Source: Altibacter sp. (GTDB lineage: Bacteria > Bacteroidota > Bacteroidia > Flavobacteriales > Flavobacteriaceae). From it: a stretch of DNA of 51,787 nt. Shown piece by piece: positions 10,083 to 27,988 of the stretch. The translations under genes and the position numbers were made by a program. The notes under the pieces are model-generated. The model was given only the letters and a program-made list of their open reading frames with translations, was not told the origin of the DNA and did not search any database. The stretch is from contig NZTP01000094.1 of assembly GCA_002696485.1 (NCBI GenBank), positions 12,502 to 64,288 of the forward strand, read 5' to 3'. How positions within the stretch are numbered: position 1 is the stretch's first letter; each line of letters opens with the position of its first letter.

Positions 10083-10112
10083 AAGAGTGAATTTAATTTT
10101 GGGATTATTGGC

Positions 10113-11060
10113 TTATAACTTGGGTTTTAAAATGAGTTTGTAATTGTTGAGTACAGTAACTTTTACATTACGGTTATTGCGCCGAAGCACTTTGCTAATC
10201 CCACCAACCTGTGGAACACTTGGAATATTGACATCTTGTATGATATCATCCAAGACCTCGCTTGTTGCTTCGGCTCGAAAACTATTTTGGACATAGATAC
10301 CCTCGCTTCCGTCCTGAAGGTCGAATGCTTTTAAACTTGTGGGATGATGCTCGATGTTTTCAATTTCTATAAGTGCACGATTTGGCTGAAAACTGATAAA
10401 ACCGAACACATTGGTGTTTTTGGGAATCAGCTTGCCGTTAATCGTCGCAGTTTTTGTCAATCGCATTCGTAACCGAGAATTAACCTTTACAACTTGGTCG
10501 CCATCGACAACCACATAAATAACGGCATCGGTAATTCCGGCAATTGAAGCATCTGTTTTAAGAGGTGCAGAAGCAAAAAACAGTTGATGTTCCAAACCTA
10601 TTTCTTTAGCTTTTATTTTTTGCTCGGCTCTGACTTCTACTGAATCGATTTTTTCGACAACTGTGTTGGTCATTCTTTTTACCCCTATATTTTGGTAGGT
10701 CCTATCCGAATATTTTATTCTTCCGGATTCATAGATACTATCCACGATTCGTTCTTTTTCCTTTTCGGGCAAGTCCTCATCATAGAAACCCAAAGAATCA
10801 ATCAGTTTTTCATCGTAAATACTTGGGGCATTGGTTTCCCTTACTTCCTTTAAATCATTTATGGCATCCAGTTTGGAATCGTATTCTTTCTGTTCTTCAT
10901 CCAGTTCGGGAATTAAAGTCTGTTCGAGGTTCTGATTTTCACTGTCATCATCGCCCATTATCATCACGGAATAGGCAATCAAGAATATGAGTACAGTGGC
11001 AATTACCACCGCAAATACTATTTTATTTTTTTCTATTTTCATAAGTTTGGATTTTATCAT
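10113..11060 (-). CDS. traM: conjugative transposon protein TraM (VirB10-like)
   Basis: A bitopic inner-membrane protein with one N-terminal membrane helix (VFAVVIATVLIFLIAYSVMI), then an acidic, helical linker and a C-terminal beta domain ending VTVLNNYKLILKPKL. These are the features of Transposon_TraM proteins, the VirB10-like part that bridges both membranes. The frame extends upstream to a TTG at 11078, but the ATG at 11060 or the ATG at 11042 (MKIEKNK) are better starts; I use 11060. The stop of traK at 11075 lies just upstream. In-operon with TraK and TraN as expected. Confidence 0.85.
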   Translation of the reverse strand: MIKSKLMKIEKNKIVFAVVIATVLIFLIAYSVMIMGDDDSENQNLEQTLIPELDEEQKEYDSKLDAINDLKEVRETNAPSIYDEKLIDSLGFYDEDLPEKEKERIVDSIYESGRIKYSDRTYQNIGVKRMTNTVVEKIDSVEVRAEQKIKAKEIGLEHQLFFASAPLKTDASIAGITDAVIYVVVDGDQVVKVNSRLRMRLTKTATINGKLIPKNTNVFGFISFQPNRALIEIENIEHHPTSLKAFDLQDGSEGIYVQNSFRAEATSEVLDDIIQDVNIPSVPQVGGISKVLRRNNRNVKVTVLNNYKLILKPKL

Positions 11061-11074
11061 TGCCGATGATTGAC

Positions 11075-11689
11075 TCAACTTTCATCGTTCAATTTTTTTA
11101 AAGTATTTTCAAAATAATTTGTTATCAAAAGCCCGTGAGGATTGTTGGGGAAATTTCTATCTACGGTAATAAGATTTCCAGTAGAAACCAGCTCATAGGT
11201 ATCAACGATAGAACCTCGATTGATTTCAAATACCGTTACAGCTCTAAAGGCATACTTTCCATTTTGTTCCTCGATTTGCGAATCGATGCTCAACACTTTC
11301 TGTACTAAAGAATATTGCAACAATCGGTTGTAAACACCATCGGCTTTTTTCTGACGATAAAGGTTGTCAACGGAACTATTGCCAAGCCATAGTGCTTTTT
11401 CTAAATTCCGCTCATAATTGCTGGCATCGATATTATAGAAGTAAGTGTGGAAAAGTTCAAGATGTGCCAAGGCTTCGACTTTGAAGTTTTCTTTTTGGGC
11501 AATCAATTTTAGTGGAATTATAGAGCCATCTGTGTTAATTGCAAATGCACTATTCAACGCTTTTTTGTTAATGTTATACGCCATCCAAACCGAAAAGAAA
11601 CTGGATAACGTAGCGCAGATAATTACTGCGAGTACAATAAAACGATTCATTTTCAGTACGGCATATATGTTCTTGTATGGTGTTTTCAT
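11075..11689 (-). CDS. traK: conjugative transposon protein TraK (VirB8-like)
   Basis: A 204-residue protein with a short cytoplasmic N-terminus (TPYKNIYAVLKMNRF), one membrane helix (FIVLAVIICATLSSFFSVW) and a periplasmic domain. This topology and the typical FHTYFYNID...NLEKALWLG segment mark TraK, the VirB8-like assembly factor of Bacteroidota conjugation systems. It begins 10 bp after traJ and ends just ahead of traM. Length fits the family (about 205 residues). Confidence 0.87.
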   Translation of the reverse strand: MKTPYKNIYAVLKMNRFIVLAVIICATLSSFFSVWMAYNINKKALNSAFAINTDGSIIPLKLIAQKENFKVEALAHLELFHTYFYNIDASNYERNLEKALWLGNSSVDNLYRQKKADGVYNRLLQYSLVQKVLSIDSQIEEQNGKYAFRAVTVFEINRGSIVDTYELVSTGNLITVDRNFPNNPHGLLITNYFENTLKKLNDES

Positions 11690-11699
11690 TATATGGGAT

Positions 11700-12542
11700 T
11701 TAATTGCTGAATAGTCTTAAGGTAAAAGACGTAGCGCGTCTATATAGTTTGAATTTTAGAAAAACGATAAATCCAACTGAACCGAGCTGTACAACTGGTG
11801 CAAAAAAGCCCTGGCCAAATTCAGTACCAAATAGGTTTGTCCAAAAGTTTGTATTGATTTCTGTATAAATGGCGTTGATAAAAACATTGACCAAAAAAAA
11901 TGCAGGAACGAGCATATATACTGCGGCGTACAATTTGAAGAAATTGTACGCCAGCGAACGAAACTTTTCAAAAACCGCCAAGCTGATGACCAATGGAAAA
12001 AATGCTTTCATTATTCCCAATAGGAAAAACCGTTCAGCTAAAAAGAGTGGATAAATAAACAGGTCGAGAATCCAAAGGAATACGCTGATGATAAAAGCGA
12101 AAATCTTGAAACCATATAACGGTGTGACCAAAGCTTCGTAGAGCAATGTCATTGCCATACTTGCCGCATCCAATAGACTTACTTCTTCTTCAAGAGGTAG
12201 GTCTTGCATCTGTAATGGTAAAAGCGCAGGTGCCGTTCCACGGTATTGACCCTCAATAGCCACGAGAATGCCATCAAAAAAACCGAGTATTTGGGTAGAA
12301 AAAATCACTAAAAGGACGACAGCAAAATTCTTCGCCAGTTCCCCAGGACTCAACCCCCAAGAATAACCATCCTTATCGGCAATTCCTTCATTATATTTTT
12401 TGAGGATATTGACCAAAAAGAACAGCACAGCAAGTGTTTTCATTCCCGCGATAGTGTACTGCGAAAATTCGCTTGCTTGTATGGTCTGAAATACCGTGTC
12501 TATATATTCCAACCCGATTCCTAAAATGATGGAAGCCGTCAT
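11700..12542 (-). CDS. traJ: conjugative transposon protein TraJ (VirB6-like membrane protein)
   Basis: A 280-residue polytopic membrane protein with about six hydrophobic helices: near residues 30-45, 75-95, 140-165, 165-190, 205-225 and 245-265. Its position between the VirB5-like gene (2 bp gap) and traK (10 bp gap) and its topology fit TraJ, the VirB6-like channel component. It is shorter than TraJ of CTnDOT. No catalytic motif is expected. Confidence 0.8.
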   Translation of the reverse strand: MTASIILGIGLEYIDTVFQTIQASEFSQYTIAGMKTLAVLFFLVNILKKYNEGIADKDGYSWGLSPGELAKNFAVVLLVIFSTQILGFFDGILVAIEGQYRGTAPALLPLQMQDLPLEEEVSLLDAASMAMTLLYEALVTPLYGFKIFAFIISVFLWILDLFIYPLFLAERFFLLGIMKAFFPLVISLAVFEKFRSLAYNFFKLYAAVYMLVPAFFLVNVFINAIYTEINTNFWTNLFGTEFGQGFFAPVVQLGSVGFIVFLKFKLYRRATSFTLRLFSN

Positions 12543-12544
12543 AT

Positions 12545-13114
12545 TTAATAACTTGTTTCTCGGTTATTGACCTTGTCCTGCATTTTTCTAAAAGATATAA
12601 TATCTCTATATCGCTTGGTTCTAATGGTAATGTTCGAGACCATTTCCTTGGATTCCTCTTCCTTCTTTTTCAAAACTTCAGCACGTTCTGCATCGCTCAT
12701 TTTTAAATAGTCGCTTGATAGGATTTCATCAATAAAATCCACCGTGTCCAAAGAGTTTTGTACGATGGCATCAAACGATTCTGCAATGCGCGATACTTCC
12801 TCTGGTTTAATGTAGGGCGAGTTTAATATGTCCTGTAAATCATTTTGCATAACTTCAATAAGCCTTTGGTTGTTACTTCCTATTTCTTCAACAGCTTTAA
12901 GTTGTCTAACTACATCTGAAACCTTCTCAATGCTTTCCTTTGCATCCTTCAAGAATTTTACAGATTTAATGAGTTGGCTTGTTTGTTTTGCGGATTCCAC
13001 CAGAGATTTTACCAAGCTGATAAAGTTGGTGTTGTCATAAACGGGCATCCCTTGGGCTTTTATGTTTAAGCTGAACAAGAGCGCCATTGCGAGTAATAAA
13101 ATTCTTGATTTCAT
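12545..13114 (-). CDS. conjugal transfer protein, TraI/VirB5-like
   Basis: A 189-residue secreted helical protein. It has a signal peptide (LLLAMALLFSLNIKAQG, cleavage near residue 21) and then MPVYDNTNFISLVKSLVESA, close to the start of TrbJ/VirB5-type proteins, which carry a V-Y-D-x-T-N-F motif. The rest is predicted coiled-coil helices with many Glu and Lys. VirB5-like proteins cap or contact the conjugative pilus. It lies between the traG ATPase (13 bp) and traJ (2 bp). In CTnDOT numbering this place belongs to TraI. Moderately sure. Confidence 0.72.
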   Translation of the reverse strand: MKSRILLLAMALLFSLNIKAQGMPVYDNTNFISLVKSLVESAKQTSQLIKSVKFLKDAKESIEKVSDVVRQLKAVEEIGSNNQRLIEVMQNDLQDILNSPYIKPEEVSRIAESFDAIVQNSLDTVDFIDEILSSDYLKMSDAERAEVLKKKEEESKEMVSNITIRTKRYRDIISFRKMQDKVNNRETSY

Positions 13115-13127
13115 AATTTCTTTGATT

Positions 13128-15524
13128 TTAAGATGAATATTCTGTGATTGCTTTTTCCATATTTTGATGCTTTTCGTAAAGCTTCATTATTTCTTCATTT
13201 TCAGTACCATCTGTTAAGTATGCTGCGTAAACTTCCTTCGGTACTTCCAATCGGAAAATGTTGCTTTCCTTTCCGATTTTGATGAACATTTCGGTGTATT
13301 TGCGGGGTCCGGTCAAATTATTTTTAATCGATTTCAATTGGTTTAAATCGTGACTGGATAGATTCAATCGTTTTTGTAGTTCAACATACCCTTTCTCATT
13401 ATGAAGGCTGTAAATAACCTGCGTATTTTCAAGAATACTTGCCGATGTTGAATTGTTTGGAAGTTGATTGATGGATTGAAGGATGATGCCAATGGCGCCA
13501 TTTTGTTTACGAATAGCTTGATAATAGAATTCCACACTTTCCAATACATTTTCAAATTTCAGTTGTTTGGCAAACTCGTCGAAAAGTATGATACCTTTTT
13601 CGGCACGGTTTTTCCAAATAGTACGCTGAATCGCAGATTTTATCAGCTTCAACATTACGGAAAGGATTTCCTTATTGTCCTTTACTTCGTCCAATTCAAA
13701 AACAATAAGACGTTTATCCTCAATTTTATAGGTCTGGTCTTCACTGACTTCAAATAGAAAACTATATAGACCATCGCCGACATACTCTGACATCACGTGC
13801 AAAAAACTCGTAATATTGAAGTAGTCGGGATGGATTTTAAGGGTGCTCAAAAGGTCTTTCTGATTCCCTTCTATAAAATGGTAAAACCCATCCAAAGAAT
13901 GGTTTTCGGGTGTGCTATCGTAATAATGGCGCAAAATCTTTTTAACCGAAACAGATTGTGCCTTTGTTACTTTCAAATCAGAAGCAAAAAGTTCAAAAAG
14001 GAACACGGACAAATCTTCCAAACGTTCCGGTGTCAGGTCATTTTGGTTGCTGATGTAAAAAGGATTGATACCCAAATTCTTTCCGCTTTCATAACGAAGC
14101 ACCGTATATTTTTCAGGATAAAGTTTGGCAAATTTGGTGTATGAGCCACCGAGGTCAATAATGACCAAGCGAACCCCACTCTCGAAATATTGACGCAGGA
14201 TATTATTGGCCAAAAAGGATTTGCCTTCGCCTGTTGGGGCAAAAATGGCAAAGTTGCGTGCCTTGATGCGTTTCTTGCGTTCGTCCCAAACATCCTTTAA
14301 AACGGGAATGTTATGCTCACGGTCATTAAAGATGATTCCAGTGGCATCGGACTTGTAGTTGGTGTTGTTAATGAACAGGCACAAAGCGTGTTTTAAATCG
14401 GTAACATATAAATCCTGATTTGAAAAGTTGGAAGAATAGCAGCAGTAGCTGTTCAGTATATAATTTTTGCGTTCTTCGCCTCTTGGGTAATAGGGAACAA
14501 TATCCAGTTCTTTGAATTCGGTCTTAATTTTTGAACCGATACGGCTCAAATTCTCTGGATTCTTATCCCAAAAAATGATATTCAAATGACCACGGATAAT
14601 CCGTGCATTGTCGTCAGCATTGATTTGGTCAAGAATGTGCTGGATTTTGCCAAGAACTACCTTATTCTGTGAACCAAAATTGGAACTTTTTTTGAGTTCC
14701 TCTATTTTCTTATCGAGTAGTTTGCGCCACTTCTGTTTATCATCGAGATAAAGAATTTGATTGACAATATGATTTTCGTTCAAGGTCAGACCCAGACCAT
14801 CAATAAATCCTTGGTGGAAAACAAAGTCATCTGAAGTAAACCGTTCGTTGGTTTTACTGCTTTGTACACTTTCGCCAAAGCATAGTTCACTATTGATGGC
14901 AAGAGCATCAAAGTAATTTTCGCCGATGTTGACATTCAATTTCTCTAAAAGGATATCAGTATCAAAATCTTCGTTGAAACCATTGAAATAACCATTGGTC
15001 AGACTGTGGATTTCCTTTGCTTCAAGCGGAATAAATTCCATCTTTCTGCTATTATTGATAAAGGAAACAGAATCGCTGACCGAGTTAATAAAGCTGCTCA
15101 AGTTATCATCCAGCTTTTGAATAATATCCTTTGAAATTTTTCGAAAAGGATTCACATATTTAGGATTGTTCAATGCCTTGTTTTTCGTCAGTATGAAGAA
15201 TAGAAAACATTTATGTTCCATATACTCGCGACCTTTAAAATGGTCGTGAGTGGCTTTTTCCAAAAAGGTAGAATTCGGCAGTTGGTTTGAAGCATAGGAT
15301 TTCTTTATATAGACATCCTGTTTATGTACGACAGTGCCAACAGGCAAGGACTTCAACGCTTGAAACCACGCCCCGTGTATATCCTCAAAATCCTTCTCGG
15401 AAAGTGAGTAGATTTCAGGCAATATCCCTTCATAACAAAGTATCAGATTTCCATTGTTGGCAAAAATGATATTGTCCTGAATATCTGTAATTGGGCGATA
15501 TGCCGATAGGTTAATCTTCTTCAT
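13128..15524 (-). CDS. traG: conjugation system ATPase TraG (VirB4-like)
   Basis: About 798 residues. The P-loop FAPTGEGKSFLAN lies near residue 430, Walker B IILFDEFAKQLKF near 650, and ILQSINQLPNN follows as a motor motif; these are VirB4 features. VirB4 powers pilus assembly and substrate transfer at the inner membrane. The open frame extends 27 codons further upstream into the neighbouring gene, but the MKKINLSAYRPITDI start at 15524 is the usual beginning of this family and overlaps the preceding gene by only 14 bp. Third gene of the tra operon. Confidence 0.92.
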   Translation of the reverse strand: MKKINLSAYRPITDIQDNIIFANNGNLILCYEGILPEIYSLSEKDFEDIHGAWFQALKSLPVGTVVHKQDVYIKKSYASNQLPNSTFLEKATHDHFKGREYMEHKCFLFFILTKNKALNNPKYVNPFRKISKDIIQKLDDNLSSFINSVSDSVSFINNSRKMEFIPLEAKEIHSLTNGYFNGFNEDFDTDILLEKLNVNIGENYFDALAINSELCFGESVQSSKTNERFTSDDFVFHQGFIDGLGLTLNENHIVNQILYLDDKQKWRKLLDKKIEELKKSSNFGSQNKVVLGKIQHILDQINADDNARIIRGHLNIIFWDKNPENLSRIGSKIKTEFKELDIVPYYPRGEERKNYILNSYCCYSSNFSNQDLYVTDLKHALCLFINNTNYKSDATGIIFNDREHNIPVLKDVWDERKKRIKARNFAIFAPTGEGKSFLANNILRQYFESGVRLVIIDLGGSYTKFAKLYPEKYTVLRYESGKNLGINPFYISNQNDLTPERLEDLSVFLFELFASDLKVTKAQSVSVKKILRHYYDSTPENHSLDGFYHFIEGNQKDLLSTLKIHPDYFNITSFLHVMSEYVGDGLYSFLFEVSEDQTYKIEDKRLIVFELDEVKDNKEILSVMLKLIKSAIQRTIWKNRAEKGIILFDEFAKQLKFENVLESVEFYYQAIRKQNGAIGIILQSINQLPNNSTSASILENTQVIYSLHNEKGYVELQKRLNLSSHDLNQLKSIKNNLTGPRKYTEMFIKIGKESNIFRLEVPKEVYAAYLTDGTENEEIMKLYEKHQNMEKAITEYSS

Positions 15525-15795
15525 AGTCAAAGCCGGAATTTCTTTTGTTACTAATGATTTTTGGGAAGGCTTTTGCCATTTGGAACAGCTGCGGATTATT
15601 GGCAATTCGGGTCAAGGCGATAAAAAGCATTGAATTGACTATCAGCACGCCGATAATGATTCCAAAGCTGAACGAAAATATGATGACCAAGAGCGAAGCC
15701 ACTATGGAAATCATCATTAATGCGAACAGCGAAATAGGCAGCCCAAAAATGACCGCCCTTTTCCTGATGTTTTTATAGACCTCGAACCGCTTCAT
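15511..15795 (-). CDS. traF: conjugative transposon protein TraF (DUF4133, VirB3-like)
   Basis: A 94-residue membrane protein with a basic N-terminus (KRFEVYKNIRKRAVIFGLP) and two closely spaced hydrophobic helices (about residues 18-45 and 45-62). This is the pattern of DUF4133, the VirB3-like partner of the VirB4 ATPase. Its start overlaps the stop of the pilin-like gene (TAATG) and its end overlaps the start of traG by 14 bp, so all three are translationally linked. Confidence 0.85.
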   Translation of the reverse strand: MKRFEVYKNIRKRAVIFGLPISLFALMMISIVASLLVIIFSFSFGIIIGVLIVNSMLFIALTRIANNPQLFQMAKAFPKIISNKRNSGFDYEED

Positions 15796-16082
15796 TATAC
15801 CACGATTGAGATTAGGTAAGTAAAGATGCCTACGACTGCGCCTGCGATTAGGACAAAGACCAATACACGGGTAATTCCTTTTTTCAGGTCTGCGTTTTCG
15901 CCAAAGAAATGCCCTGCATTGAACAGAAAGCCAATGAGGAAGATGACACCGAGAATTATTGGAAAGATGGTTCTGATGGTATCGGAAACGTCATTGACCG
16001 AATCTTCGATACCACCGATTTGTGCAAAAGTGGGTACTGAAATTAAGGACAGTACCATCAATAGAAATATTGATTTTTTCAT
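15795..16082 (-). CDS. traE: conjugative transposon protein TraE (DUF4134, VirB2 pilin-like)
   Basis: A 95-residue protein with a signal peptide (SIFLLMVLSLISVPTFAQIGG) and two hydrophobic helices in the mature part (FPIILGVIFLIGFLFNAGHF and ITRVLVFVLIAGAVVGIF). This matches DUF4134 proteins, which have the size and topology of VirB2 pilins. It is the first gene of the tra operon. The promoter must lie in the divergent interval to the amidase gene. Confidence 0.85.
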   Translation of the reverse strand: MKKSIFLLMVLSLISVPTFAQIGGIEDSVNDVSDTIRTIFPIILGVIFLIGFLFNAGHFFGENADLKKGITRVLVFVLIAGAVVGIFTYLISIVV

Positions 16083-16896: not shown

Positions 16897-16900
16897 GGTT

Positions 16901-16996
16901 ATGAAAGAGTTATTTTATGAAGTAGTAAAAAGCATAGTGAACCTTTTAAAAGTTAGCTTTATGGAATTTGTCAGAAACCTAAAAAGAAAGAAATGA
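16901..16996 (+). CDS. possible 31-residue peptide after the amidase
   Basis: ATG at 16901, four bases after the amidase stop, opens a frame of 31 codons to a TGA at 16996. The peptide is amphipathic and basic (LFYEVVKSIVNLLKV, then FVRNLKRKK). Tight spacing suggests co-translation with the amidase, but the frame is short enough to be chance. No family is recognised. Confidence 0.3.
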   Translation: MKELFYEVVKSIVNLLKVSFMEFVRNLKRKK

Positions 16997-17087
16997 TTTA
17001 TTTTACCCTAAATCCAGAAATTCAATGAACTAATTGTTTTTTAAGATATAATTATTGGCGCATCAATATTTCATATCAAAACAGAAA

Positions 17088-18098
17088 TTAAGGCTCGATT
17101 TTTCTATGGGTCAGTAAATCAGAGTATTTTTTGGCAAAACGAGGTTCTATAGAATTTATAAACAACAGCCAACCATTAAGTTTTCTTTGTAAATATTCTA
17201 TTTTAGAATCAACTTCGTCTCGAAGGGAAGAGCTGCTGAAATAATCTTGTGGGGTCTTTTCAAGGTCGTAAAGTACATAGCTTCTATATCCAAACTTATT
17301 GATATAGTAGATTTGTTGCCTTAATTTTCTTTTAGTTTTCTTTGAAATTCTTGGCGATTCTTTATCAAATACAGTTAAACCAGTAACATACTGATGCCAA
17401 CCACGTTTCATTAATTTACTTTTAGGCTTATTTATTCTAAATCCGAATTCTGAAATTATCTCTTGGACTTTAGCTTCTATATTAAATTCCTTATCAGATG
17501 AGAAATATAGGTCATCCGCATATCTTGAATAAGTTATATTTTTATCCAGTTTTTCCATCTTTTTATCCAAAGGGTAGAACACAATATTTGCTATTGTTGG
17601 ACTGGTATTGAAGCCTTGGACCAATGCTGATTGAAATGTGACTAATTTAGTCAAATAGGCAGCGGTATCTGTGGTAAAACCTAAATCTTTAAATGATTGC
17701 TCAACAAGACTACTTTTTACGGTATCAAAATAATTTTCAATATCTAAAACAAGAACATATTTTTTAGTCAAATGCTTTGTGGCATTAGTCTTAATATTTC
17801 TGCCTTTAACATAACCGTGAACTGAAGTAGGAGGCTTGTAAAGTGAATTCAAATTTGAGTTTAAGATTTTGAGTGTATTTGATAGAACGTCTGACTGGCA
17901 GGAATATACAACTCTTTTTCCACCATTTTTTTTAGAAATGTTTAGCTTTCTAATTTTTAATGCATCTGGTATTTCAATTTCATTTTCTACATCATTAATA
18001 ACTACATAATCATTATTTGTCATTAACTTAAAGGACATCTCATCGAGCTTAAGGTAATTTACAAGTCGTTTAGTTGTATTAATTTCTGTAGGTTTCAT
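17088..18098 (-). CDS. retron-type reverse transcriptase
   Basis: A 336-residue reverse transcriptase. The catalytic motif YADDLYFSS lies near residue 191, an earlier Asp is in VLVLDIENYFDTV near 118, and QGFNTSPTIAN is the usual template-grip motif. Two signatures point to retrons: NATKH near residue 105 fits the retron NAxxH motif, and VTGL near 240 fits the retron region Y motif. Retron RTs copy a structured RNA into branched msDNA that guards a toxic partner. Here the partner would be the DUF3800-like gene 72 bp upstream on the same strand. No msr-msd RNA is obvious; see the junction stem at 18108-18188. Length agrees with retron RTs. Confidence 0.85.
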   Translation of the reverse strand: MKPTEINTTKRLVNYLKLDEMSFKLMTNNDYVVINDVENEIEIPDALKIRKLNISKKNGGKRVVYSCQSDVLSNTLKILNSNLNSLYKPPTSVHGYVKGRNIKTNATKHLTKKYVLVLDIENYFDTVKSSLVEQSFKDLGFTTDTAAYLTKLVTFQSALVQGFNTSPTIANIVFYPLDKKMEKLDKNITYSRYADDLYFSSDKEFNIEAKVQEIISEFGFRINKPKSKLMKRGWHQYVTGLTVFDKESPRISKKTKRKLRQQIYYINKFGYRSYVLYDLEKTPQDYFSSSSLRDEVDSKIEYLQRKLNGWLLFINSIEPRFAKKYSDLLTHRKIEP

Positions 18099-18107
18099 AT
18101 AATAAAA

Positions 18108-18188
18108 GCGGCGGCAAGGGTAAGAACTAACTGTTATTCTAATACCGAATACGAACTCATATCCGTAAATTTATCCCTTTACCACCGC
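18108..18188 (-). other. imperfect inverted repeat spanning the DUF3800-RT junction, RNA stem candidate
   Basis: GCGGCGGCAAGGGTAA (18108-18123) and TTATCCCTTTACCACCGC (18171-18188) are inverted partners. As minus-strand RNA they form 16 pairs with two G-U wobbles and two single-base bulges, closing a 47-base loop. A small hairpin lies inside (AGAA/TTCT and TAA/TTA around 18123-18140). The upstream arm is the last codons and stop of the DUF3800-like gene; the downstream arm ends at TTTTATTAT and the RT ATG. The loop is too short for a usual msr-msd, so this may be part of the retron RNA or a control element. Confidence 0.5.
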
Positions 18189-18914
18189 AAGTTTTTTTCT
18201 TAAATTCTTAAAGTTTATCGTGTTTTCCTCATTAGCAAATCTACTCAAAAATGAATCATCATTCTGAAAATGAATTAGGGCTATTTTGTCTTTAATTACA
18301 TCAAAGGCACTTTTGGCCCAATTCTCAATATTTCCTTCAGATGATAAAATTTTGTTCAATATGAAACTTACATAATCTGTAATAGGCATATTTGGATTTT
18401 CTTTACTTACAATTTCGTAATTAATAAAATTTAATTTTTTTTGGCTTGAAAATACTGAATTGAGAATTTTATCAAGTGAGCGTTTTTCCACTTCCAATTC
18501 TTCAAAAAAGAATTTATAATATTCTTTTTTGTTCTTTTTGATTCTTGGTATTACACTTTTGTGCAACATCAATTCAATTATTTCATTATCTTCTTTTGTT
18601 GCCTTTAAATTTTCATAATATGTTCCTTCCTTCAAAAGAACAGTGAAATAAGCCCTAAAGTTCAAGTGAGGAAGCAGTCGAAACATTTCGGTCATTACAC
18701 TAATATGGTCTGCTGTAGCGTGAAAGTTGTTTTTCTTAACACGTTCACCGTATTCTGATAATAAAACGTCATCTGCAAGTGTATCTTTTAATTTTTCAAG
18801 CGCTTCTTCCAGCAAATTAGGGGTGTCTGATTTTATACAACCATAAACAAATAATGTGGAATCGTTATTTATGTGTCCAGTTTCATCAACATAATAATAA
18901 TTTGTTTTAGTCAT
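18171..18914 (-). CDS. DUF3800-like protein, probable retron effector
   Basis: A 247-residue protein beginning YYYVDETGHINNDSTLFVYG, as DUF3800 proteins do (an acidic residue in a first strand, in the manner of an RNase H-like fold). The second landmark, NNFHATADHISVMTEMFRLL, and a third near the end (PITDYVSFILNKIL) also fit that family. DUF3800 proteins have been listed among retron-associated genes (type VII in one published classification, from memory). It is transcribed with the reverse transcriptase 72 bp downstream. Predicted role: toxic nuclease-like effector restrained by msDNA; the nuclease activity is inference. Confidence 0.7.
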   Translation of the reverse strand: MTKTNYYYVDETGHINNDSTLFVYGCIKSDTPNLLEEALEKLKDTLADDVLLSEYGERVKKNNFHATADHISVMTEMFRLLPHLNFRAYFTVLLKEGTYYENLKATKEDNEIIELMLHKSVIPRIKKNKKEYYKFFFEELEVEKRSLDKILNSVFSSQKKLNFINYEIVSKENPNMPITDYVSFILNKILSSEGNIENWAKSAFDVIKDKIALIHFQNDDSFLSRFANEENTINFKNLRKKLAVVKG

Positions 18915-18972
18915 TCATCAAATGTAGGAATTCTTTTTTTGTGCTTTAAAATTTATAATTTGACTTCATTTT

Positions 18973-19008
18973 TGTCATTTAGAAGATTAAGGTTACGTTG
19001 AAATGACA
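18973..19008. repeat. 8-bp perfect inverted repeat upstream of the DUF3800-like gene
   Basis: TGTCATTT (18973-18980) and AAATGACA (19001-19008) are perfect inverted copies 20 bases apart, in the 113-bp interval between jetD and the DUF3800-like gene. It may be an operator or a hairpin of a short RNA. In some retrons the RNA lies ahead of the effector gene, so this interval is a second place to look for msr-msd. Confidence 0.4.
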
Positions 19009-19027
19009 GCATCGCATTTTTAAAATA

Positions 19028-19975
19028 CTACACTTTTTTTTCACAAATTATAGATATTGGGTCAATTGTTTGTTCTTCTACCCATTTGTTACTATTAATC
19101 AACGTTTCGATTAATTGTATTTCACCTGGTAGAAAAGCGTTCCGTTCTAATCCCGATAAGGATTCAACTTTCCATTCACTAAAATGTTTTCCCGACTTTA
19201 TTGGTTTTAATAATGGATTTGTTGGTACTATAAGTGTTATAGCCTTTCCTTTATTTCCCAATATTTCCTTTATACGAGTGTAAATTTCCAAACCGTGAAA
19301 ATCCCAATCACAGACATAATAGATTGGAAATTTGATTTTATCAATGGGTACTTCGTATAGCTTTTTGGTGTTATTTCCGCCTAAATACCATAGTTCTATA
19401 TGGTTTTTTCTAAATTCAAAGGGGTCTTTTAAAAAGTCAATATTTTCACATAATAAAATATATTTTGGGTCTAAACAATCAACAACCAAACGATATTGTT
19501 GGTCTTTTGCCGATTCTCTGGGAAACTTTGTTACACCCAAAATCGTTAGGATATCTTTTTTTAATTGAGGTTTGCCATCGAGGAACTTGGAATCTTTATT
19601 TTCAAAAAAGATGCTCGAAAATATTCTCGGTGTGGATAGTTTTTGTCGAAGAGTTTCCCTGTTTTTATGAATAAGAATGAGAGTTTCTAGAATTTCTTGC
19701 GAATAAGTTCTTCTTGCGGAAATTTCAATACCTGCATTTTGAAAAAATTCAGCATAGTATTCAAATTGGTCCAGTAAATGTTCTTCGAAGTAAGCATTAA
19801 ATCCAGTATTCTTAACGATGATATCTATATTGCCATCTTTGTATTTGAGAAGATGACGCTGTTTATAAAGCACATTTTTTACGAACACGTTGCTCATAAG
19901 CTTTACACGAGTGCTTTTCCCTTCATAAAGTTGGTGCAGTCCTTTTAATTGCCGCCAAGTTATTTCCTTTCTCAT
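19028..19975 (-). CDS. jetD: Wadjet protein JetD (TOPRIM nuclease subunit)
   Basis: A 315-residue protein with a helical, basic N-terminal half and a C-terminal TOPRIM-like domain. The acidic motif is visible as VCDWDFHGLEIY near residue 220, preceded by LLCENIDF near 180 carrying the Glu. JetD is the topoisomerase VI-like subunit that cuts plasmid DNA once the SMC complex has stalled. It starts 3 bp after jetC. Somewhat shorter than type I JetD, so the N-terminal arm may be reduced. Last gene of the jet cluster; the DUF3800-like gene follows after 52 codon-free bases plus a dyad. Confidence 0.82.
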   Translation of the reverse strand: MRKEITWRQLKGLHQLYEGKSTRVKLMSNVFVKNVLYKQRHLLKYKDGNIDIIVKNTGFNAYFEEHLLDQFEYYAEFFQNAGIEISARRTYSQEILETLILIHKNRETLRQKLSTPRIFSSIFFENKDSKFLDGKPQLKKDILTILGVTKFPRESAKDQQYRLVVDCLDPKYILLCENIDFLKDPFEFRKNHIELWYLGGNNTKKLYEVPIDKIKFPIYYVCDWDFHGLEIYTRIKEILGNKGKAITLIVPTNPLLKPIKSGKHFSEWKVESLSGLERNAFLPGEIQLIETLINSNKWVEEQTIDPISIICEKKV

Positions 19976-19978
19976 AAG

Positions 19979-22900
19979 CTAAAGTTCACAAAATATGACC
20001 GATGGATGATGGTTAATCCTATCTTGGTCTTTTCTTTTTGAAAGCCTGTAGATATATTGATTTTTTCTTGACAGTTTATTTGGATTGATACCAAGTGAGA
20101 TAACTTGATAATCAAATTTTTCTGCCAACTCTTTAAGCATATCAAAATTAGACCCGATACCTTCTGCTTCATCAATACTCAAAAAACGCAGGCCTGCATT
20201 TTTATTGACCTTTCCGTCCTTAATTAAGGAAAGCTTTGCGATACATAAAAGTGCTATGGATGAATAGGTCTGTCCAGTACTACCCGAATTTTTTTTACCG
20301 CCTTTGGTTATGAGTTCATAATTAAGAGTATAATAAGAGAAGGGGTTGAGCAGCTGCCTAATGGAAACATTTGGTAAAGGCGAAATGCTATGCTCTTTGT
20401 ATGCTAAAAGAATTTTTTCTTCTAGTGTTGGCGCATCCTTTAATTTTGATGTAAGGCTATTTTCCTTATCAAATAAACCAAAATCAAAATTGCCAAGATT
20501 ACCCAAGAAAGCACTTATCCACTGCAATGAAATATCCTTTCTTAAATCTGGTTTTAGGGATGCTGTGTTGTCACCAGTAATTATCATATAATCTTTCTGA
20601 AAAAAGCTATTCATTTTTTTACTATGTGACACCTGTTTGTTTATAGCGGACTGTAAATCTTGTAAGAGGTCCCTTATACTTATCAGTTTATTTTGGTTTA
20701 GCCTAGCATTGGCATCATTGATTTGGTCAAGATATTCAATGATTTTCGGTATTACAGCGGCTTCATCAAATGAGATGTCCTTGAACAATTGCTGTGGTAA
20801 AAGCAAACGAACCAAGTCCATAAAGTTCTTATCGTCCTTAAACTGTTCTGATTTATCTGTGAGTTGATACGCAATTAGCATTGCTTCAAATTGCTTTGAA
20901 TAATCTTCCAATCTTTTCTGGTATTGGCCACTTGCATTTTCGTAATCAATTTTTTCAACTTTTATTTTTGAAAATTCAGCTAGCCATTCTGGATATAATG
21001 TCTCGATTTTAAGGATGCGATTTTCAGCGTCTTCTTTATCATCTATAAGTGTATCTAACTTATCCCTATTATTCAGAATATTTAGCTGTTGTAAATATTC
21101 CTTATGAAATTCTACGGCAAACAGGCTTTCGGCAAATGAAAATTTAGATTTCTGTCGTTCTTTTGAAATATTTAAATCTTTCAACAATTCTTCAACGGTG
21201 TCATCTAATGGTTTTATTTCTTCGATGTTTATTTTTGGCAGTTGGTCTTCTATAGTTTTTAATTCGCGAAACGTAGTGTTTAAATTGTTGTTTTTCTCTT
21301 TAGACGTAGAATGTGACTCTAATAATTCTTGCTCGTTCTTTAAATCTTTAAATATTTGTTCAAGGTTTTCCCTCGCTATTTCAGAAACAGCTTCTTTTAC
21401 TTGTTCTGATAACGCACCATCTTTTCTTGACACCCAAGCAGTAAGGGCATCAGGAATTTCAGTTATGTCATTAAGAAGGAAGGTTTGAAGTTTTTTGAGT
21501 TGGGAAATGTCATTAGTAATCTGTTCAATTTGAGATTTAATCTCTCTGTTAGATTTTGAAAGCAATACTTCAATTTTAGAATGGTCATTCGTATTGAATA
21601 TTTGTTCATCTACATAAGTGATATAAATATTCAGACCGGCAAGTTCAAGCCAAAACCCATTATTCTCTTTTGAATGTAAGTGGTCTTTTAGTGCCGAGAT
21701 GAGTAGTTTAGGGTTTGGTATATATTTACTTCCTTTCTCGGGAAATTCTGGAATTACGGTCTTTAAGTCGTGAAAATGCCGTAGTACACTTTCTTCTTCA
21801 GGAGAGCAAGCTTTGTTTTGTTTAAGTATCCAATGAGAGAGTGTATCTGGATTGTTGAAATCATTGAATTTTACCAACTCATCCGCTAATGACAACCTTT
21901 TTTTAAGTGTTTCTAGAGTTTGATTTTGTTCAACAATTATTGGTTCAAGACCATTTTCAAAGTTTAATGCATCAAAATCAGTTTCTAACCCTTTCGCTTT
22001 AAGAGCTGTATTCAATTTGTCGAGTGCTATTTTAAGTTTTTGTTTTTCAATATAATCTTGAACCACTTTTTTCAGTTGCACATTGTTTTCAATGCGTAAT
22101 TCCGTTTTTATTGTATTACAATAATTGATAAGCTCTACACGCTTGTTCAGTTTAGTAAACTCTAAATTTGATTCATCTAGTTCTGGCAGAAGTAAATTGA
22201 TTTTATGTTGTGTATCACGAAGTTTGCTAGCCTTTAATATAATTAGCTCTTCGATTGCGATTCTAGCGTCAAGAATTTCGCACACTAATTTTTTTAGAGT
22301 TTTTGTGCTTAATTTGAGAACTGTTTTCTTATAGTTCCAATCTATCTCTACAAAATCTCTTAATGACGAATCTTTTAGTTTTTTCAGCTTGTAAAGCCGT
22401 TCTATATTATTGCTTTTATCGGTAAGAGTTTCTATTTCCCTTTTATTTGTCCGGTGCATTGCCACCGAATCTTCATATTTTTTTACGGTTTCTAGGTATT
22501 TATTATAGTATAGCTGATTTTTTTCCTTTCCGAATAAGAACTCTTGCAGCTGTACATCATTTTTTACCGATATTCCCTTTCTTGAAAAGGCTTGCAAAAT
22601 TTTGGCGTAATCACTTAAATCGCTTTTACTGCTGGCAATATCAAGAGGAAGAAGATTGTTATGTAATAGTGCTTCGTGATAGTCTTTAAAAAATGGATAA
22701 ACTTTACACCCGAAATGGTCTGAATTATTCATTTTTGCATCAAAATCAACTAATGTCAAAAGTGTTTCGTCTTGAACAAAATCCTCAACAGTAAAGGGTT
22801 TTTGGAAAGGTTCGAAAACTTTCTGCTCAAAATCTAATCCACCTTGGACTATAAAGGCCTGACTTTGCGTTGACTTTCTTTCGATATAACAACCAATAAG

Positions 22901-23191
22901 CAAGTATTCTTCTTTTTGAACTTCCACATTGATATAGGCGTACCCATAATCGCCTTTTTCACTTGTCTCTATTACCAAGGTATTGAAAGGTCTATCATCT
23001 TTGCTATTTGTTGAAGATTCATACTCTGTAGAACCAATAATGATTAGCTGTAAAAGGTCTGTAAGAATACTTTTGCCCACACCGCTATCGCCAGTAAAAT
23101 CCGTTCTAAATGGATGAAGTTCATAATCAAAGTTTTGATGATGAATTATATTAATCGTTCCGATACTGTGTATTCTTGGAAAATCTTTCAT
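19979..23191 (-). CDS. jetC: Wadjet protein JetC (SMC/MukB-like ATPase)
   Basis: A 1070-residue SMC-type protein. The P-loop FTGDSGVGKSILTD lies near residue 38, a long region rich in Leu, Glu and Lys (about 240-830) is predicted coiled coil, an ABC signature-like SGSTGQTYSSIALL is near 975, and Walker B FLSIDEAEGIG is near 1004. JetC is the loop-extruding motor of Wadjet, related to MksB and MukB. Its ATG overlaps the end of jetB by 4 bp. The order JetA-JetB-JetC-JetD is canonical. Confidence 0.9.
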   Translation of the reverse strand: MKDFPRIHSIGTINIIHHQNFDYELHPFRTDFTGDSGVGKSILTDLLQLIIIGSTEYESSTNSKDDRPFNTLVIETSEKGDYGYAYINVEVQKEEYLLIGCYIERKSTQSQAFIVQGGLDFEQKVFEPFQKPFTVEDFVQDETLLTLVDFDAKMNNSDHFGCKVYPFFKDYHEALLHNNLLPLDIASSKSDLSDYAKILQAFSRKGISVKNDVQLQEFLFGKEKNQLYYNKYLETVKKYEDSVAMHRTNKREIETLTDKSNNIERLYKLKKLKDSSLRDFVEIDWNYKKTVLKLSTKTLKKLVCEILDARIAIEELIILKASKLRDTQHKINLLLPELDESNLEFTKLNKRVELINYCNTIKTELRIENNVQLKKVVQDYIEKQKLKIALDKLNTALKAKGLETDFDALNFENGLEPIIVEQNQTLETLKKRLSLADELVKFNDFNNPDTLSHWILKQNKACSPEEESVLRHFHDLKTVIPEFPEKGSKYIPNPKLLISALKDHLHSKENNGFWLELAGLNIYITYVDEQIFNTNDHSKIEVLLSKSNREIKSQIEQITNDISQLKKLQTFLLNDITEIPDALTAWVSRKDGALSEQVKEAVSEIARENLEQIFKDLKNEQELLESHSTSKEKNNNLNTTFRELKTIEDQLPKINIEEIKPLDDTVEELLKDLNISKERQKSKFSFAESLFAVEFHKEYLQQLNILNNRDKLDTLIDDKEDAENRILKIETLYPEWLAEFSKIKVEKIDYENASGQYQKRLEDYSKQFEAMLIAYQLTDKSEQFKDDKNFMDLVRLLLPQQLFKDISFDEAAVIPKIIEYLDQINDANARLNQNKLISIRDLLQDLQSAINKQVSHSKKMNSFFQKDYMIITGDNTASLKPDLRKDISLQWISAFLGNLGNFDFGLFDKENSLTSKLKDAPTLEEKILLAYKEHSISPLPNVSIRQLLNPFSYYTLNYELITKGGKKNSGSTGQTYSSIALLCIAKLSLIKDGKVNKNAGLRFLSIDEAEGIGSNFDMLKELAEKFDYQVISLGINPNKLSRKNQYIYRLSKRKDQDRINHHPSVIFCEL

Positions 23192-23838
23192 TGATAGCTT
23201 GCAATTATGTCGTCGATTTTAGGAATAATGTCCTCATAAATCGTATTGATGCGTTGAAAAGAAGGTCGGGTTTCAAAATAGTCCTGGTCTAGGTCTATCC
23301 AACCCAAGCGTTTAAAGTTTTGCAGGGCAGCAAGCACCACGTTATCAATCATTTTATCATCGTCATCTATTTTCACGTCACCACTGGATTGTGCAAATAG
23401 GCGAATGAGCCCTTCTTTATATTCTTCATAATCATTTCTAATCATCTCTTGAAGGGCAGCTAAACTATTCAGTTCTACATTACCTTCATAGAAAATGATT
23501 TTATACATAATTATACCGACGATGATGTATTTATTCTTTAGAACGTCTCTATGTGAAGATGGTATTTTACCACGATTGGAAGTGTTGAAATTCAAGAAGA
23601 AGTAAGAATCGGACTGAAGGTTCTCTTCCATAAGATGAATACCGTAGAAATGTTGATAATATTTGTTAAGGTCTTCCTTGTGCTTTTTTAAAAATTTGTA
23701 GTAGTTTATTTGGTCACCATATTCTTGTATGTGAATGCCATCTTTGAGATAATAGTCCAACTCACCAAAATAAGTTGGTGCATCTGGGTCTTCATAAAAT
23801 TTTAAAAACTCTAATGTTCCGTTACTATTGTGTTCCAT
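23188..23838 (-). CDS. jetB: Wadjet protein JetB (MksE/MukE-like)
   Basis: A 216-residue acidic protein with no membrane segment, located between the kleisin-like and SMC-like genes, overlapping the first by 28 bp and the second by 4 bp. The C-terminal region (MIDNVVLAALQNFKRLGWID) is a winged-helix-like segment of the kind found in MukE/MksE. JetB binds the kleisin JetA and completes the SMC ring. The identity rests mainly on position and size, which fit well. Confidence 0.82.
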   Translation of the reverse strand: MEHNSNGTLEFLKFYEDPDAPTYFGELDYYLKDGIHIQEYGDQINYYKFLKKHKEDLNKYYQHFYGIHLMEENLQSDSYFFLNFNTSNRGKIPSSHRDVLKNKYIIVGIIMYKIIFYEGNVELNSLAALQEMIRNDYEEYKEGLIRLFAQSSGDVKIDDDDKMIDNVVLAALQNFKRLGWIDLDQDYFETRPSFQRINTIYEDIIPKIDDIIASYQ

Positions 23839-25148
23839 AATATTAATCCTTCGTTCTTAACAGGTTTGGTTTTATCAATTTTGACATCATATTCATCTTT
23901 TGCATAGCAAAGGTCCAATACTTTAAAAAAAGCTTTGGTGGCAATGGCAAAATCAGATGATTCTCGTAATATCCTAAAATAAATATCAGATAGGTTCATT
24001 TCTTTATTTTTCCTCAATTCCGCAAATATTAGGTTAACCCAATTATCTATGGTATCATAATCATCAAAAGCTTTTTCTAAAATTGCTTGGTTCTCATTTT
24101 CGGCAATTAAATCGGGCTCATATTTTTTTCTGGTCTTTGATTTTGTAGGGAATAGTTCCTTATCCCTATCAAATAGAATGTACTTTGGTCGTTTAAATTT
24201 CACCTCAAAGGATGGCACTTCTTTAGGAAAGATTATTTCTTTATCATACTTAATTCGTTCAAGCGTGGAATATTTCAATAAAAATCGAATGAATCTGTCT
24301 GTTTGAGCACTATATTCAGGGTTTCGAAAGGCTGCAAACAACTGTTTTATTTTCGGCTGAATTCTGTTGAGCCTTCTATCGGTACCACGCAATCTACTTT
24401 GAATGCTATCAAAAAAATCGACTTTAGACTGTATAAGGTCAAGTATTTTTCTGTCGTTTGAGTCGATTCCAGTCAATAACAAGCTTATGGAATTGGTTTC
24501 GGTAAATGCGATTCTCAACTCTTCATTTTTTCTATGAACTTCAGTTAAATCTTCACTGACATTTCGTAGTAGCTTGAGAGGCTTGAGATGTTGAGCCAAT
24601 GTGTCTTTTCTTAATTTGATTACAGATTCGTCTATTTGGCGGTCTAAAAAGTCGATATGTTTTTTAAGTGTGGGATGATAATGTTCAAAATGGATTTCAA
24701 ACCAATCTATCAGAGCTTTTTCCGAACCTAATGAAGCTTCCAGTTGCGACTTAAGCTCTACGCAAATTTTTTTGATTTTTGTAGGTTTAAAACTGCCTTC
24801 CAGTGTTTCCTTCGCAATTTTACAAAAGTTAAGTCCATATTCCTGAAAAGAATAGGTTCTGGTCTCTTCGTCGTAGCTAAAAAAAAATTTTTGCAGCCGT
24901 AAAATCCTTTTCTTGTTATATGATTTTACGTAAAGGTTTTCTTTCTCGTTGGCTGTCATAGTAGCTTCAAACAGCCTATGAATATCGTCGCCTGAAAAAC
25001 TATTGTTTTCGTAACGCCCATTAATAATTCCTTCATAAAGATGTATAACAACTATGCCTTCGCGCTTTTCTGGAAACAGTGCTCGGTAGGTTTCAGATTT
25101 TGATGCCTCATCTTCAAAGTTAAATATGCTTTCTTTTTCCTTGCTCAA
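23811..25148 (-). CDS. jetA: Wadjet protein JetA (MksF/MukF-like kleisin)
   Basis: A 445-residue mostly helical protein with alternating charged segments, a predicted winged-helix N-terminus (GIVVIHLYEGIINGRY) and a long helical middle (residues 150-290). It is the first of the four jet genes and has the size of JetA kleisins. The start codon appears to be TTG at 25148: the frame has no ATG before residue 68, and an in-frame stop lies just upstream. It begins 17 bp after the PHP-ATPase gene, so the two are probably one transcript. Confidence 0.8.
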   Translation of the reverse strand: MSKEKESIFNFEDEASKSETYRALFPEKREGIVVIHLYEGIINGRYENNSFSGDDIHRLFEATMTANEKENLYVKSYNKKRILRLQKFFFSYDEETRTYSFQEYGLNFCKIAKETLEGSFKPTKIKKICVELKSQLEASLGSEKALIDWFEIHFEHYHPTLKKHIDFLDRQIDESVIKLRKDTLAQHLKPLKLLRNVSEDLTEVHRKNEELRIAFTETNSISLLLTGIDSNDRKILDLIQSKVDFFDSIQSRLRGTDRRLNRIQPKIKQLFAAFRNPEYSAQTDRFIRFLLKYSTLERIKYDKEIIFPKEVPSFEVKFKRPKYILFDRDKELFPTKSKTRKKYEPDLIAENENQAILEKAFDDYDTIDNWVNLIFAELRKNKEMNLSDIYFRILRESSDFAIATKAFFKVLDLCYAKDEYDVKIDKTKPVKNEGLILWNTIVTEH

Positions 25149-25165
25149 TATATCATTTGTATGTT

Positions 25166-27988
25166 TTAAAAGTTATATTTCTTTTTACGTTTATCAAAAG
25201 CTTCAGGGCCGCCTTCAAGCACATCGCAAATATGTTCTTGAACACCTCTTCTGTATAAGACTTCAAGAATACTATCATCTTCGGCTTTAGTGTATTCGAT
25301 AGAACCAGAAATATACTCAAAATCGTGGGTTTTATTCTTGGTGTCTTCACCATTTTGATTTGCAACAATAATAAGTTCTGCATCCGCACCCAAGACCAAA
25401 TTTGGATTATGGGTAACAATAATAATTTGTCTTGTTTTCTTTCGTTTTCGAAGAAACTTTACGACCTGATTATAGATAGAACGATTGTCAAGGTCATCTT
25501 CAGGTTGGTCTATGAGAATGGGACATTGGCTATCATCCAAATCTATGAGTAAACGCAGTAATACAAATGATTTTTTTCCGGGCGACATATCTGAAATATC
25601 ATCATCCTGAAATGTAACCTTATAGTCGTGCATAAACCAATTTTTAAAAAGTGATGTAATAGCCTCTTTGTTGGTCACGCCCTTGCGTTTCGGAATTTTA
25701 CTATTTATAATTTTCCAAGCTTCAGCTTTTAAAAAAGTTTTGTGTTCTTCCACTCCTTCAAAATCATATTCCGTCAGATAATCATATTCCTTGCTCGCTG
25801 TAGCACGTCCATCAAAACTCTTTTGCACGAATGATTCTTGAAAGTGTTCCTTCTTGAACTTGGTTACAATATTAAAAGAGAGCTCATCATCAAAATCAGA
25901 TAAATCCACACTATCTTTTGCTTCTAAATAAAGTGAGTAAAATTCTGCATTATAATCTGATAGTAGTTGAATGTTCTTTTCAACAAGCTTATAAGAGTTA
26001 TTAATCTCTTTCTGGTATTCTGCTATCTGGAGAAGTATTTTTTCTTCTTTCCCCAATTCCTTTATTAACTCATTAAGTGCGCTTTGGTCTTTTAAGGCCT
26101 CCTTAAGGTCGCTTATTGATACTTCAAGGGCTTGGATTTCTTTTGTTGTAGTCTGAATTTGTGCTTCCTGCGTCACAATCCTCTTGTCTATTTCAGAAGA
26201 CCAATCGTCCTTATAAAACTTGGTTTTAGATGTTATCAGACCTTGGATTTCTGTCTTAAGCGTAGTACCAATTATATTTTCAACTAATGTTTCGTCGATT
26301 TCAACACTTATATTTTTGAGTGACTTTAATTTAGATATGTCTTTGTTGAAGGTTTCTATTGCTGCATTTTTTTCTTTTATTTGAGTGTTGGTCTGATTGT
26401 ACCTATCTAAATCTTCCTTACTTACTTGAGATTTTTCTTGAAGACCTTTAATTTCACCGTTGAGCTTTTCAATTTGCTTTTTTATGCCGCTTTCATCACC
26501 CAGTTCCTTTTTTAATCGATTTTTTTCAATATTTATATCGATGTTGGCAAAAAGATTCTTTATAGCTGTTTCTATTTTATCTGCGGTTTCTCTTTTTCTG
26601 TCGTTCAGCGAATCATACCATTTTTTAAATTCTTTCTTCTGCAAAAGTACATCCTGGATTATTTCATCAATATCGCCTGTGTCTTCACCGTCATCAACTA
26701 CTCTGTTTAAGTAAGACTGCGGTATATAAATAATCTTCTTATCCGGATTATTGGTAGCGCCCAGGCTGGAAATTTGACCATCTTTCCAAATGACTTCAAA
26801 ACCTTTTACAGGTCTTTTGTCTTCAATTTTTGCAGAAGCATTTCGTTTTGAGTATTCCGTGATGTCAGCGGTTTTAGCGGTACTTTTCAATAAGATGGAT
26901 TTTCCTGTGGATTTTCCGCCAATAATAGCTGTCAAATTTTGATTACAAGGTATTGGGTCGGTGGTAAATACAGGGTCTATAAAACGTAACTTATCTATAA
27001 CTTCATAAACCTTTTTCTCATCTGGCTTGCGGTCAGTAATACTGACACGCTCATCTGGTTCGTAAATAATTTGCTTAAGCCCTTCAAATGTTGGGTCAGC
27101 TTTAATCCAACAAAGTCTTGAAGCATTTTTAGTATAAAGTTCATCAAAAGTATGCGCGTCACTACCCCATATACAAGGTTTTAAAGATTTAAACTCATTG
27201 ATGTATTCTTGTGGACTTGCGCCAAAATTACCCAATGCCCATTTTCTTGTGTTCGGATTAGATGCAAATAGACAATCTGACTTTTGAATCAGAATTTTAC
27301 GCGTTAAATGCCCTTGATTGTTCCAATCTACATCACTTAAATCTTCATCCGATGGTGTGGCAATAAGATATTTTCCTTTAAAGAGTGAGGGTTGGTCGGT
27401 TAAAATTTCTGAAATTTTATCATCAGAAACTACTGCATTCATCATTCCAGTATAGAGTTGGCTTGGGTGTTGTCTAAATTGTGCGTGTTCATTTTGTAAC
27501 CTTGTACCAAGAGCAATAAGATTATTTATTGTTAGAGCTCTTCTTTCGCCTGCCTCTTGAGGATTTCCTTCAACTATAATCTTTAACTGATGAAGAAAGT
27601 TTTCTTCTATATCCTTAATGGCTACTTCGTCAGAAAATAAGACGTGAAAATTTACCCTATTATCCTGTACCAACTTATCCAGTCTAAACTCGATGTTAGG
27701 CAAAATGAGAATCTTATGGATTTTTTCAATTTCCTCATCGCTAAATTCTAATTCTTTGAGTTTCGCATTATTATTAAGGTATTGCGTTTTCAGCTTTTTA
27801 TATCCCTCTATGGAAAAATAATCAGTTATGCCTATAGAAGCGATATTGTGTGCAAGTGCTTTTGAAAATAATTGTTTCACATATTCGTCCCAGTCAGCAC
27901 CAAAACCATTGTTTAGTGCTGATTCTGGTGTATGAACGTGCAAATCCCATATTCGCCATTCTGAACCTTTAGTATAACGTTTGCTCAT
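25166..27988 (-). CDS. PHP-domain plus SMC-like AAA/ABC ATPase (TrlF-like)
   Basis: A 940-residue protein. Residues 10-70 begin a PHP phosphoesterase domain (IWDLHVHTPES, later SIGITDYFS and WGSDAHTF) with His and Asp metal ligands. The Walker A motif IIGGKSTGKSILLK lies near residue 355, a long coiled coil spans about 440-720, the signature-like MSPGKKSFVLL is near 798 and Walker B PILIDQPEDDLDN near 822, followed by IIIVTHNPNLV. Proteins of this make-up are called TrlF in some databases and occur in defence islands. It is directly upstream of jetA on the same strand (17 bp). It may be an independent defence gene or an accessory to Wadjet. Confidence 0.82.
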   Translation of the reverse strand: MSKRYTKGSEWRIWDLHVHTPESALNNGFGADWDEYVKQLFSKALAHNIASIGITDYFSIEGYKKLKTQYLNNNAKLKELEFSDEEIEKIHKILILPNIEFRLDKLVQDNRVNFHVLFSDEVAIKDIEENFLHQLKIIVEGNPQEAGERRALTINNLIALGTRLQNEHAQFRQHPSQLYTGMMNAVVSDDKISEILTDQPSLFKGKYLIATPSDEDLSDVDWNNQGHLTRKILIQKSDCLFASNPNTRKWALGNFGASPQEYINEFKSLKPCIWGSDAHTFDELYTKNASRLCWIKADPTFEGLKQIIYEPDERVSITDRKPDEKKVYEVIDKLRFIDPVFTTDPIPCNQNLTAIIGGKSTGKSILLKSTAKTADITEYSKRNASAKIEDKRPVKGFEVIWKDGQISSLGATNNPDKKIIYIPQSYLNRVVDDGEDTGDIDEIIQDVLLQKKEFKKWYDSLNDRKRETADKIETAIKNLFANIDINIEKNRLKKELGDESGIKKQIEKLNGEIKGLQEKSQVSKEDLDRYNQTNTQIKEKNAAIETFNKDISKLKSLKNISVEIDETLVENIIGTTLKTEIQGLITSKTKFYKDDWSSEIDKRIVTQEAQIQTTTKEIQALEVSISDLKEALKDQSALNELIKELGKEEKILLQIAEYQKEINNSYKLVEKNIQLLSDYNAEFYSLYLEAKDSVDLSDFDDELSFNIVTKFKKEHFQESFVQKSFDGRATASKEYDYLTEYDFEGVEEHKTFLKAEAWKIINSKIPKRKGVTNKEAITSLFKNWFMHDYKVTFQDDDISDMSPGKKSFVLLRLLIDLDDSQCPILIDQPEDDLDNRSIYNQVVKFLRKRKKTRQIIIVTHNPNLVLGADAELIIVANQNGEDTKNKTHDFEYISGSIEYTKAEDDSILEVLYRRGVQEHICDVLEGGPEAFDKRKKKYNF

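Follow-up and report, generated by a model that had tools for sequence, protein, structure and literature searches.

A compact conserved RNA between the DUF3800 and reverse transcriptase genes of a type VII-A2 retron-like locus in Altibacter sp.

The window (the whole stretch of DNA that was analysed, 51,787 nt from Altibacter sp. contig NZTP01000094.1) carries on its minus strand a DUF3800 gene followed by a reverse transcriptase (RT) gene, and the gap between the two holds a conserved, covarying RNA of 81 nt, as cut at its closing stem. On sequence grounds the gene pair is assigned to retron type VII-A2, which is already catalogued in PADLOC and is not a new gene type, and the RNA is filed as a non-classical, compact, retron-like RNA and not as a classical msr-msd, because a closing stem and an msr-type hairpin are present and a long msd hairpin is absent. 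We favour, with a probability of about 0.62, the reading that the locus is a type VII-A2 retron-like phage-defence module with the order DUF3800 - compact RNA - RT and with DUF3800 as its nuclease effector. The parts of the locus are as follows:

17088-18098, minus strand: RT of retron type VII-A2, 336 aa (PADLOC match; NATKH, YADD and VTG motifs; tree)
18108-18188, minus strand: compact non-coding RNA, 81 nt (held-out model, fold, covariation, conservation)
18108-18120, minus strand: a2, the 3' arm of the closing stem, CCCUUGCCGCCGC, ending 9 nt before the RT ATG
18124-18145, minus strand: 22-nt segment without a conserved helix, candidate template
18146-18165, minus strand: P3 hairpin, msr-like, 8 bp with loop AGUU, CGGAUAUG-AGUU-CGUAUUCG, kept in 13/13 sequences
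18175-18188, minus strand: a1, the 5' arm of the closing stem, in the last DUF3800 codons, GCGGUGGUAAAGGG, paired with a2 over 13 bp when folded
18171-18914, minus strand: DUF3800_VII partner, 247 aa, candidate RNase H-like nuclease (PADLOC, Pfam, invariant residues)

In the window, the closing stem encloses AUAAAUUUA along with the P3 hairpin and the 22-nt segment.

The two separate genes encode proteins that match the PADLOC models RT_VII-A2 (495 bits, residues 1-330; the runner-up, RT-DUF3800_VII-A1, scored 210 bits) and DUF3800_VII (313 bits) over almost their whole length, and they show no difference from the catalogued type. The original prediction had named a retron-like RT with a DUF3800-type partner, and the PADLOC models, the NCBIfam results and scores against RTs of solved structure agree with it: a profile built from ten VII-A2 RTs scored 144 bits with the retron Ec86 RT and 54.5 bits with the top group II intron RT, and in NCBIfam the window RT matched the St85 retron family (169 bits, below its cut-off) and the group II maturase family TIGR04416 at 54 bits against a cut-off of 300, and so does not qualify as a group II RT. 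All three RT motifs that had been predicted (YADD, NATKH and VTG) lie in the window RT open reading frame, and the region X NAxxH, YADD and region Y VTG motifs are invariant in the 10/10 intact VII-A2 RTs aligned, the interrupted RT of locus L031 being excluded. A quickly built tree comprised 87 RTs, of which 10 were VII-A2, 2 were VII-A1 and 75 were retained from 81 other RT loci; it has some long branches and no group II outgroup. It places the VII-A2 RTs in a single clade (SH-aLRT 98) joined to VII-A1 (SH-aLRT 93, below the program's mark of 95) and apart from the other retron-like RTs.

The partner protein scored 23.7 bits with Pfam DUF3800 (cut-off 21), and its residues D10, E11, E138 and D180 are invariant across 11/11 VII-A2 loci. 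Its predicted fold rests on the published family prediction (PMC10910872), which gives an RNase H fold and a catalytic rearrangement, because an AlphaFold2 model made without an alignment was unusable (pLDDT 32.7). When the DUF3800 profile was run against PDB sequences, it returned three matches at E <=1 (best 0.037), none of them credible.

Overlapping draws of 198, 395, 397, 395, 249, 2 and 360 genomes, with E limits of 1e-55 to 1e-70, gave 2, 1, 2, 2, 7, 1 and 9 matching genomes, respectively. Type VII-A2 was found in 11 different genomes including that of the window, all from a single family, which was also the focus of the draws. The order of DUF3800, a gap of 71-96 nt and RT is the same in 11/11 loci. 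At L031 (569-1531) an opposite-strand transposase reading frame, IS30-like by eye, splits the RT gene, with the DUF3800 frame open and the RNA intact. Peptide-pattern scans of genome contigs, with patterns derived from two sequences only, found no relatives, and the window DUF3800 protein had no match at E <=0.01 among plasmid and phage records. Four places in viral contigs that matched a P3 hairpin pattern were rejected as chance matches, as tblastn found no RT or DUF3800 in the available DNA there.

The high conservation of the gap was first visible in an alignment of the window with L002. Across nine of the eleven VII-A2 loci (L031 and L038 were excluded as near copies of L026), the gap by itself had a mean pairwise identity of 0.617 compared with 0.37-0.40 in five shuffles; when the final 20 nt of DUF3800 were added to the gap, the value was 0.608 compared with 0.401 when shuffled. 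The flanks were barely conserved above shuffles in the same nine loci (0.400 vs 0.399 for the upstream 250 nt and 0.431 vs 0.404 for the downstream 250 nt). This bears on the least probable of the alternatives, a classical longer msr-msd elsewhere in the locus with the gap RNA as an accessory, for which the upstream (113 nt) and downstream (191 nt) intervals would offer room; given the flanks, and given that a covariance model of the RNA (R1) made a single match per source, in the gap, in 11/11 sources (nine of them in its training set and the remaining two sharing the RNA of L026), we regard it as highly improbable.

The original prediction had listed three non-coding intervals, all short for a classical msr-msd, and had reported no obvious msr-msd among them. 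Two of them were correct, 18099-18170 with 72 nt and 18915-19027 with 113 nt; the downstream one, given as 16997-17087, was understated, as the true gap is 16897-17087 (191 nt) and the opposite-strand amidase reading frame ends at 16896. The judgement that they are too short for a classical msr-msd was borne out, as were both suggestions that the RNA might be compact and might overlap coding sequence, its 5' arm lying within the DUF3800 gene. The statement that no candidate was apparent did not hold, since the conserved RNA sits in the interval 18099-18170.

The RNA is 80-91 nt long, as cut, across 13 loci comprising the 11 VII-A2 loci and two fused VII-A1 loci described below (11 distinct RNAs, as L026, L031 and L038 are identical here). 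Its fold energy was below the shuffle mean in 13/13 loci, with z from -3.6 to -7.3 (window -4.2); one of 200 shuffles was equally good for L039 and none for the other loci. The P3 hairpin was kept in 13/13 aligned sequences with a loop of 3-4 nt, both sides having changed in 5/8 pairs, and its outermost pair was broken in both VII-A1 sequences. In 11/11 VII-A2 loci, P3 is followed at 21-26 nt by the UUAYY of the closing stem; in the lowest-energy folds the segment after P3 has no hairpin longer than 3-5 bp in 12/13 loci and no hairpin at all in L029, and in the window's own fold nothing stronger than a weak 5-bp hairpin forms in the 22-nt segment.

Because the a1 arms were out of register in the plain 13-row alignment (A11), from which RNAalifold recovered P3 and not the closing stem, this stem was positioned manually and then checked on held-out sequences. 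In a model-fitted alignment of 11 rows (9 distinct), where the fitting itself is biased towards the structure, 91.1% of cells were paired compared with 83.7% when partners were re-dealt and at most 42.9% when they were slid, and both-side changes were seen in 11/24 pairs; some inner closing-stem pairs were broken in two to four of the nine sequences. The held-out search is the stronger test. A model trained on seven loci (R2), with the window and L039 held out, matched the RNA of the window at E 1.5e-11, its sole match in the window at E <=5, and that of L039 at E 1.7e-7. Rfam supplied no matching family: the gap alone (E <=10) returned four matches and the 5 kb around it (E <=5) three, all far under their gathering scores and none to a retron, RT or DUF3800 family, and the 12 related loci returned none at the gathering score.

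Classical retron RNAs, as described in PMC6868368, have complementary a1/a2 ends of 8-30 bases, one to three msr hairpins with stems of 7-10 bp and loops of 3-10 nt, an msd hairpin with a stem of 10-50 bp, and a priming G in a TAGC, CAGA, CAGC, GAGC or ACGC context at the stem end. The window RNA has the a1/a2 stem (13 bp, with covariation) and an msr-type hairpin (P3), which together with the RT motifs is what it shares with Retron-Eco1 (Ec86) and other validated retrons; P3 resembles the 8-bp stem with a 3-nt loop that region Y of the Eco1 RT binds (PMC6868368). It differs from them in having no msd hairpin of 10-50 bp, for which the 21-26 nt after P3 leave no place in 11/11 VII-A2 loci, and in its total of 81 nt against the 241 nt given for the Mxa1 transcript (PMC6868368). 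At the stem end, AG followed by 0-4 purines and UAAA is present in 11/11 VII-A2 and 0/2 VII-A1 loci; CAGA, as in Eco2, stands there in 3/11 VII-A2 loci, and the window has AAGG, which is not a TAGC-type priming site.

On the favoured reading, we infer that P3, with its 8 bp, would serve as the msr to which the RT binds, and that the RT may prime at or beside a G close to where the a1/a2 stem ends on its inner side. The segment between P3 and a2 would be copied to a cDNA of about 21-31 nt, lengthened to about 50 nt should P3 be copied as well. The complex of RT, RNA and cDNA would keep the candidate nuclease DUF3800 inactive until a phage disturbed it, whereupon DUF3800 would cut nucleic acid and the infection would be stopped. 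The absence of a long msd hairpin, the window's AAGG, which is no TAGC-type site, and the lack of the VII-A2 motif in VII-A1 count against this reading, and DUF3800 is not obviously lethal without the RT, because L031 has an open DUF3800 frame beside its interrupted RT gene.

Among the alternatives, that in which DUF3800 has the RNA as its cognate ligand, which it processes or which restrains it in the manner of an RNA antitoxin while the RT has another substrate, survives best and is still unlikely. Rfam holds RNA families named for DUF3800 genes (DUF3800-I and DUF3800-IX), PMC10910872 ties DUF3800 to putative non-coding RNAs, and both the lack of a long msd and the 3-20 nt that the RNA shares with the DUF3800 gene in 11/11 VII-A2 loci would suit such a ligand. 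The RNA, however, resembles an msr in its closing stem and hairpin, the DUF3800 families were among those that gave no match in the Rfam searches of the window and its 12 relatives, and in two fused VII-A1 loci the RNA precedes the RT, far from the DUF3800 end.

Those two loci, on plasmids of Aminobacter (L022) and Rhizobium (L023), encode the RT and DUF3800 as one protein, and their type was confirmed. Their RNAs (82 and 80 nt) have an 11-bp closing stem and a GAG-UCG hairpin and lie 17-18 nt before the RT; type VII-A1, the neighbour of VII-A2 in the RT tree, is thus alike in RNA size and layout and differs in RNA sequence and in the fusion. The common layout was seen by eye and by fold in these two examples only, because R1 gave no significant VII-A1 match: neither locus was matched with default filters, and with the filters off L022 ranked first at E 0.29 and L023 was missed. 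In a negative control, the best 80 of 196 viral RT-relative loci, R1 found nothing significant (two matches at E 0.36 and 1.2), and neither tblastn nor profile found DUF3800. A locus that adjoins type VII in the tree (L050) gave weak R1 matches only, at E 0.62 and 5.5, and a search of viral contigs for more VII-A1 yielded four RT relatives of 30-31% identity. On the Aminobacter plasmid, the fused gene is immediately preceded by another annotated RT gene (L022:1133-2722).

The VII-A1 loci also weigh on a third alternative, slightly less likely again than the ligand, in which the RNA acts in cis, as a leader or a processing hairpin by which RT translation is set or the two messages are separated, and no cDNA is made. 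In 11/11 VII-A2 loci the a2 arm stops 6-15 nt short of the RT ATG, and the a1 side overlaps the stop codon of the gene upstream, as would be expected of such an element, but some bases after P3 are kept into VII-A1 in the alignment, the layout before the RT is similar there, and RNAs closed by a stem of the a1/a2 type are what retron RTs act on (PMC6868368).

Returning to the retron-like reading, a wider and tentative proposal, to which we give somewhat less than even odds, is that all type VII retrons, split and fused, may have a distinct miniature RNA of 80-91 nt that has no msd hairpin and overlaps the effector gene in the split form; its product, if there were any, would be a very short cDNA of about 21-31 nt, and sensing would depend on the RNA and its conserved segment and not on hairpin msDNA. 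Retrons are classified by their RT and effector, yet it is the RNA that makes a retron work, and an exact candidate of 81 nt makes type VII-A2 directly testable. If DNA is made, the product would fall under the 40-180 nt range that one survey examined on gels for retron DNA, or at the edge of that range (PMC12548924), and the RNA would serve as a small scaffold for producing single-stranded DNA in cells. A literature search for a retron with DUF3800, or of type VII-A2 or VII-A1, found no paper, the type-defining 2020 classification and the experimental census being outside its scope. The RNA matches nothing in Rfam or in the literature searched, and it may have been described before, since PADLOC has its own msr-msd models (PMC9252829).

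Directly upstream of DUF3800 in the window lies a Wadjet-like operon (19028-25148, minus strand), with a weak match to JetD, a protein of 1070 aa that matches AAA_29 weakly, an MksE match above its cut-off and a fourth gene, in the JetA position, without a family match. It is adjoined by a gene for a TrlF-family AAA-like ATPase (25166-27988, minus strand; NCBIfam 606 bits). Conjugative transposon genes (TraM, a TraG P-loop protein, DUF4138 and a weak TrbC) occupy 9243-16082 on the minus strand, which places the defence genes within an integrative conjugative element or next to one. Another contig of the same genome (L120) carries a second retron, of type III-A, composed of a PRTase, a winged-helix protein and an RT.
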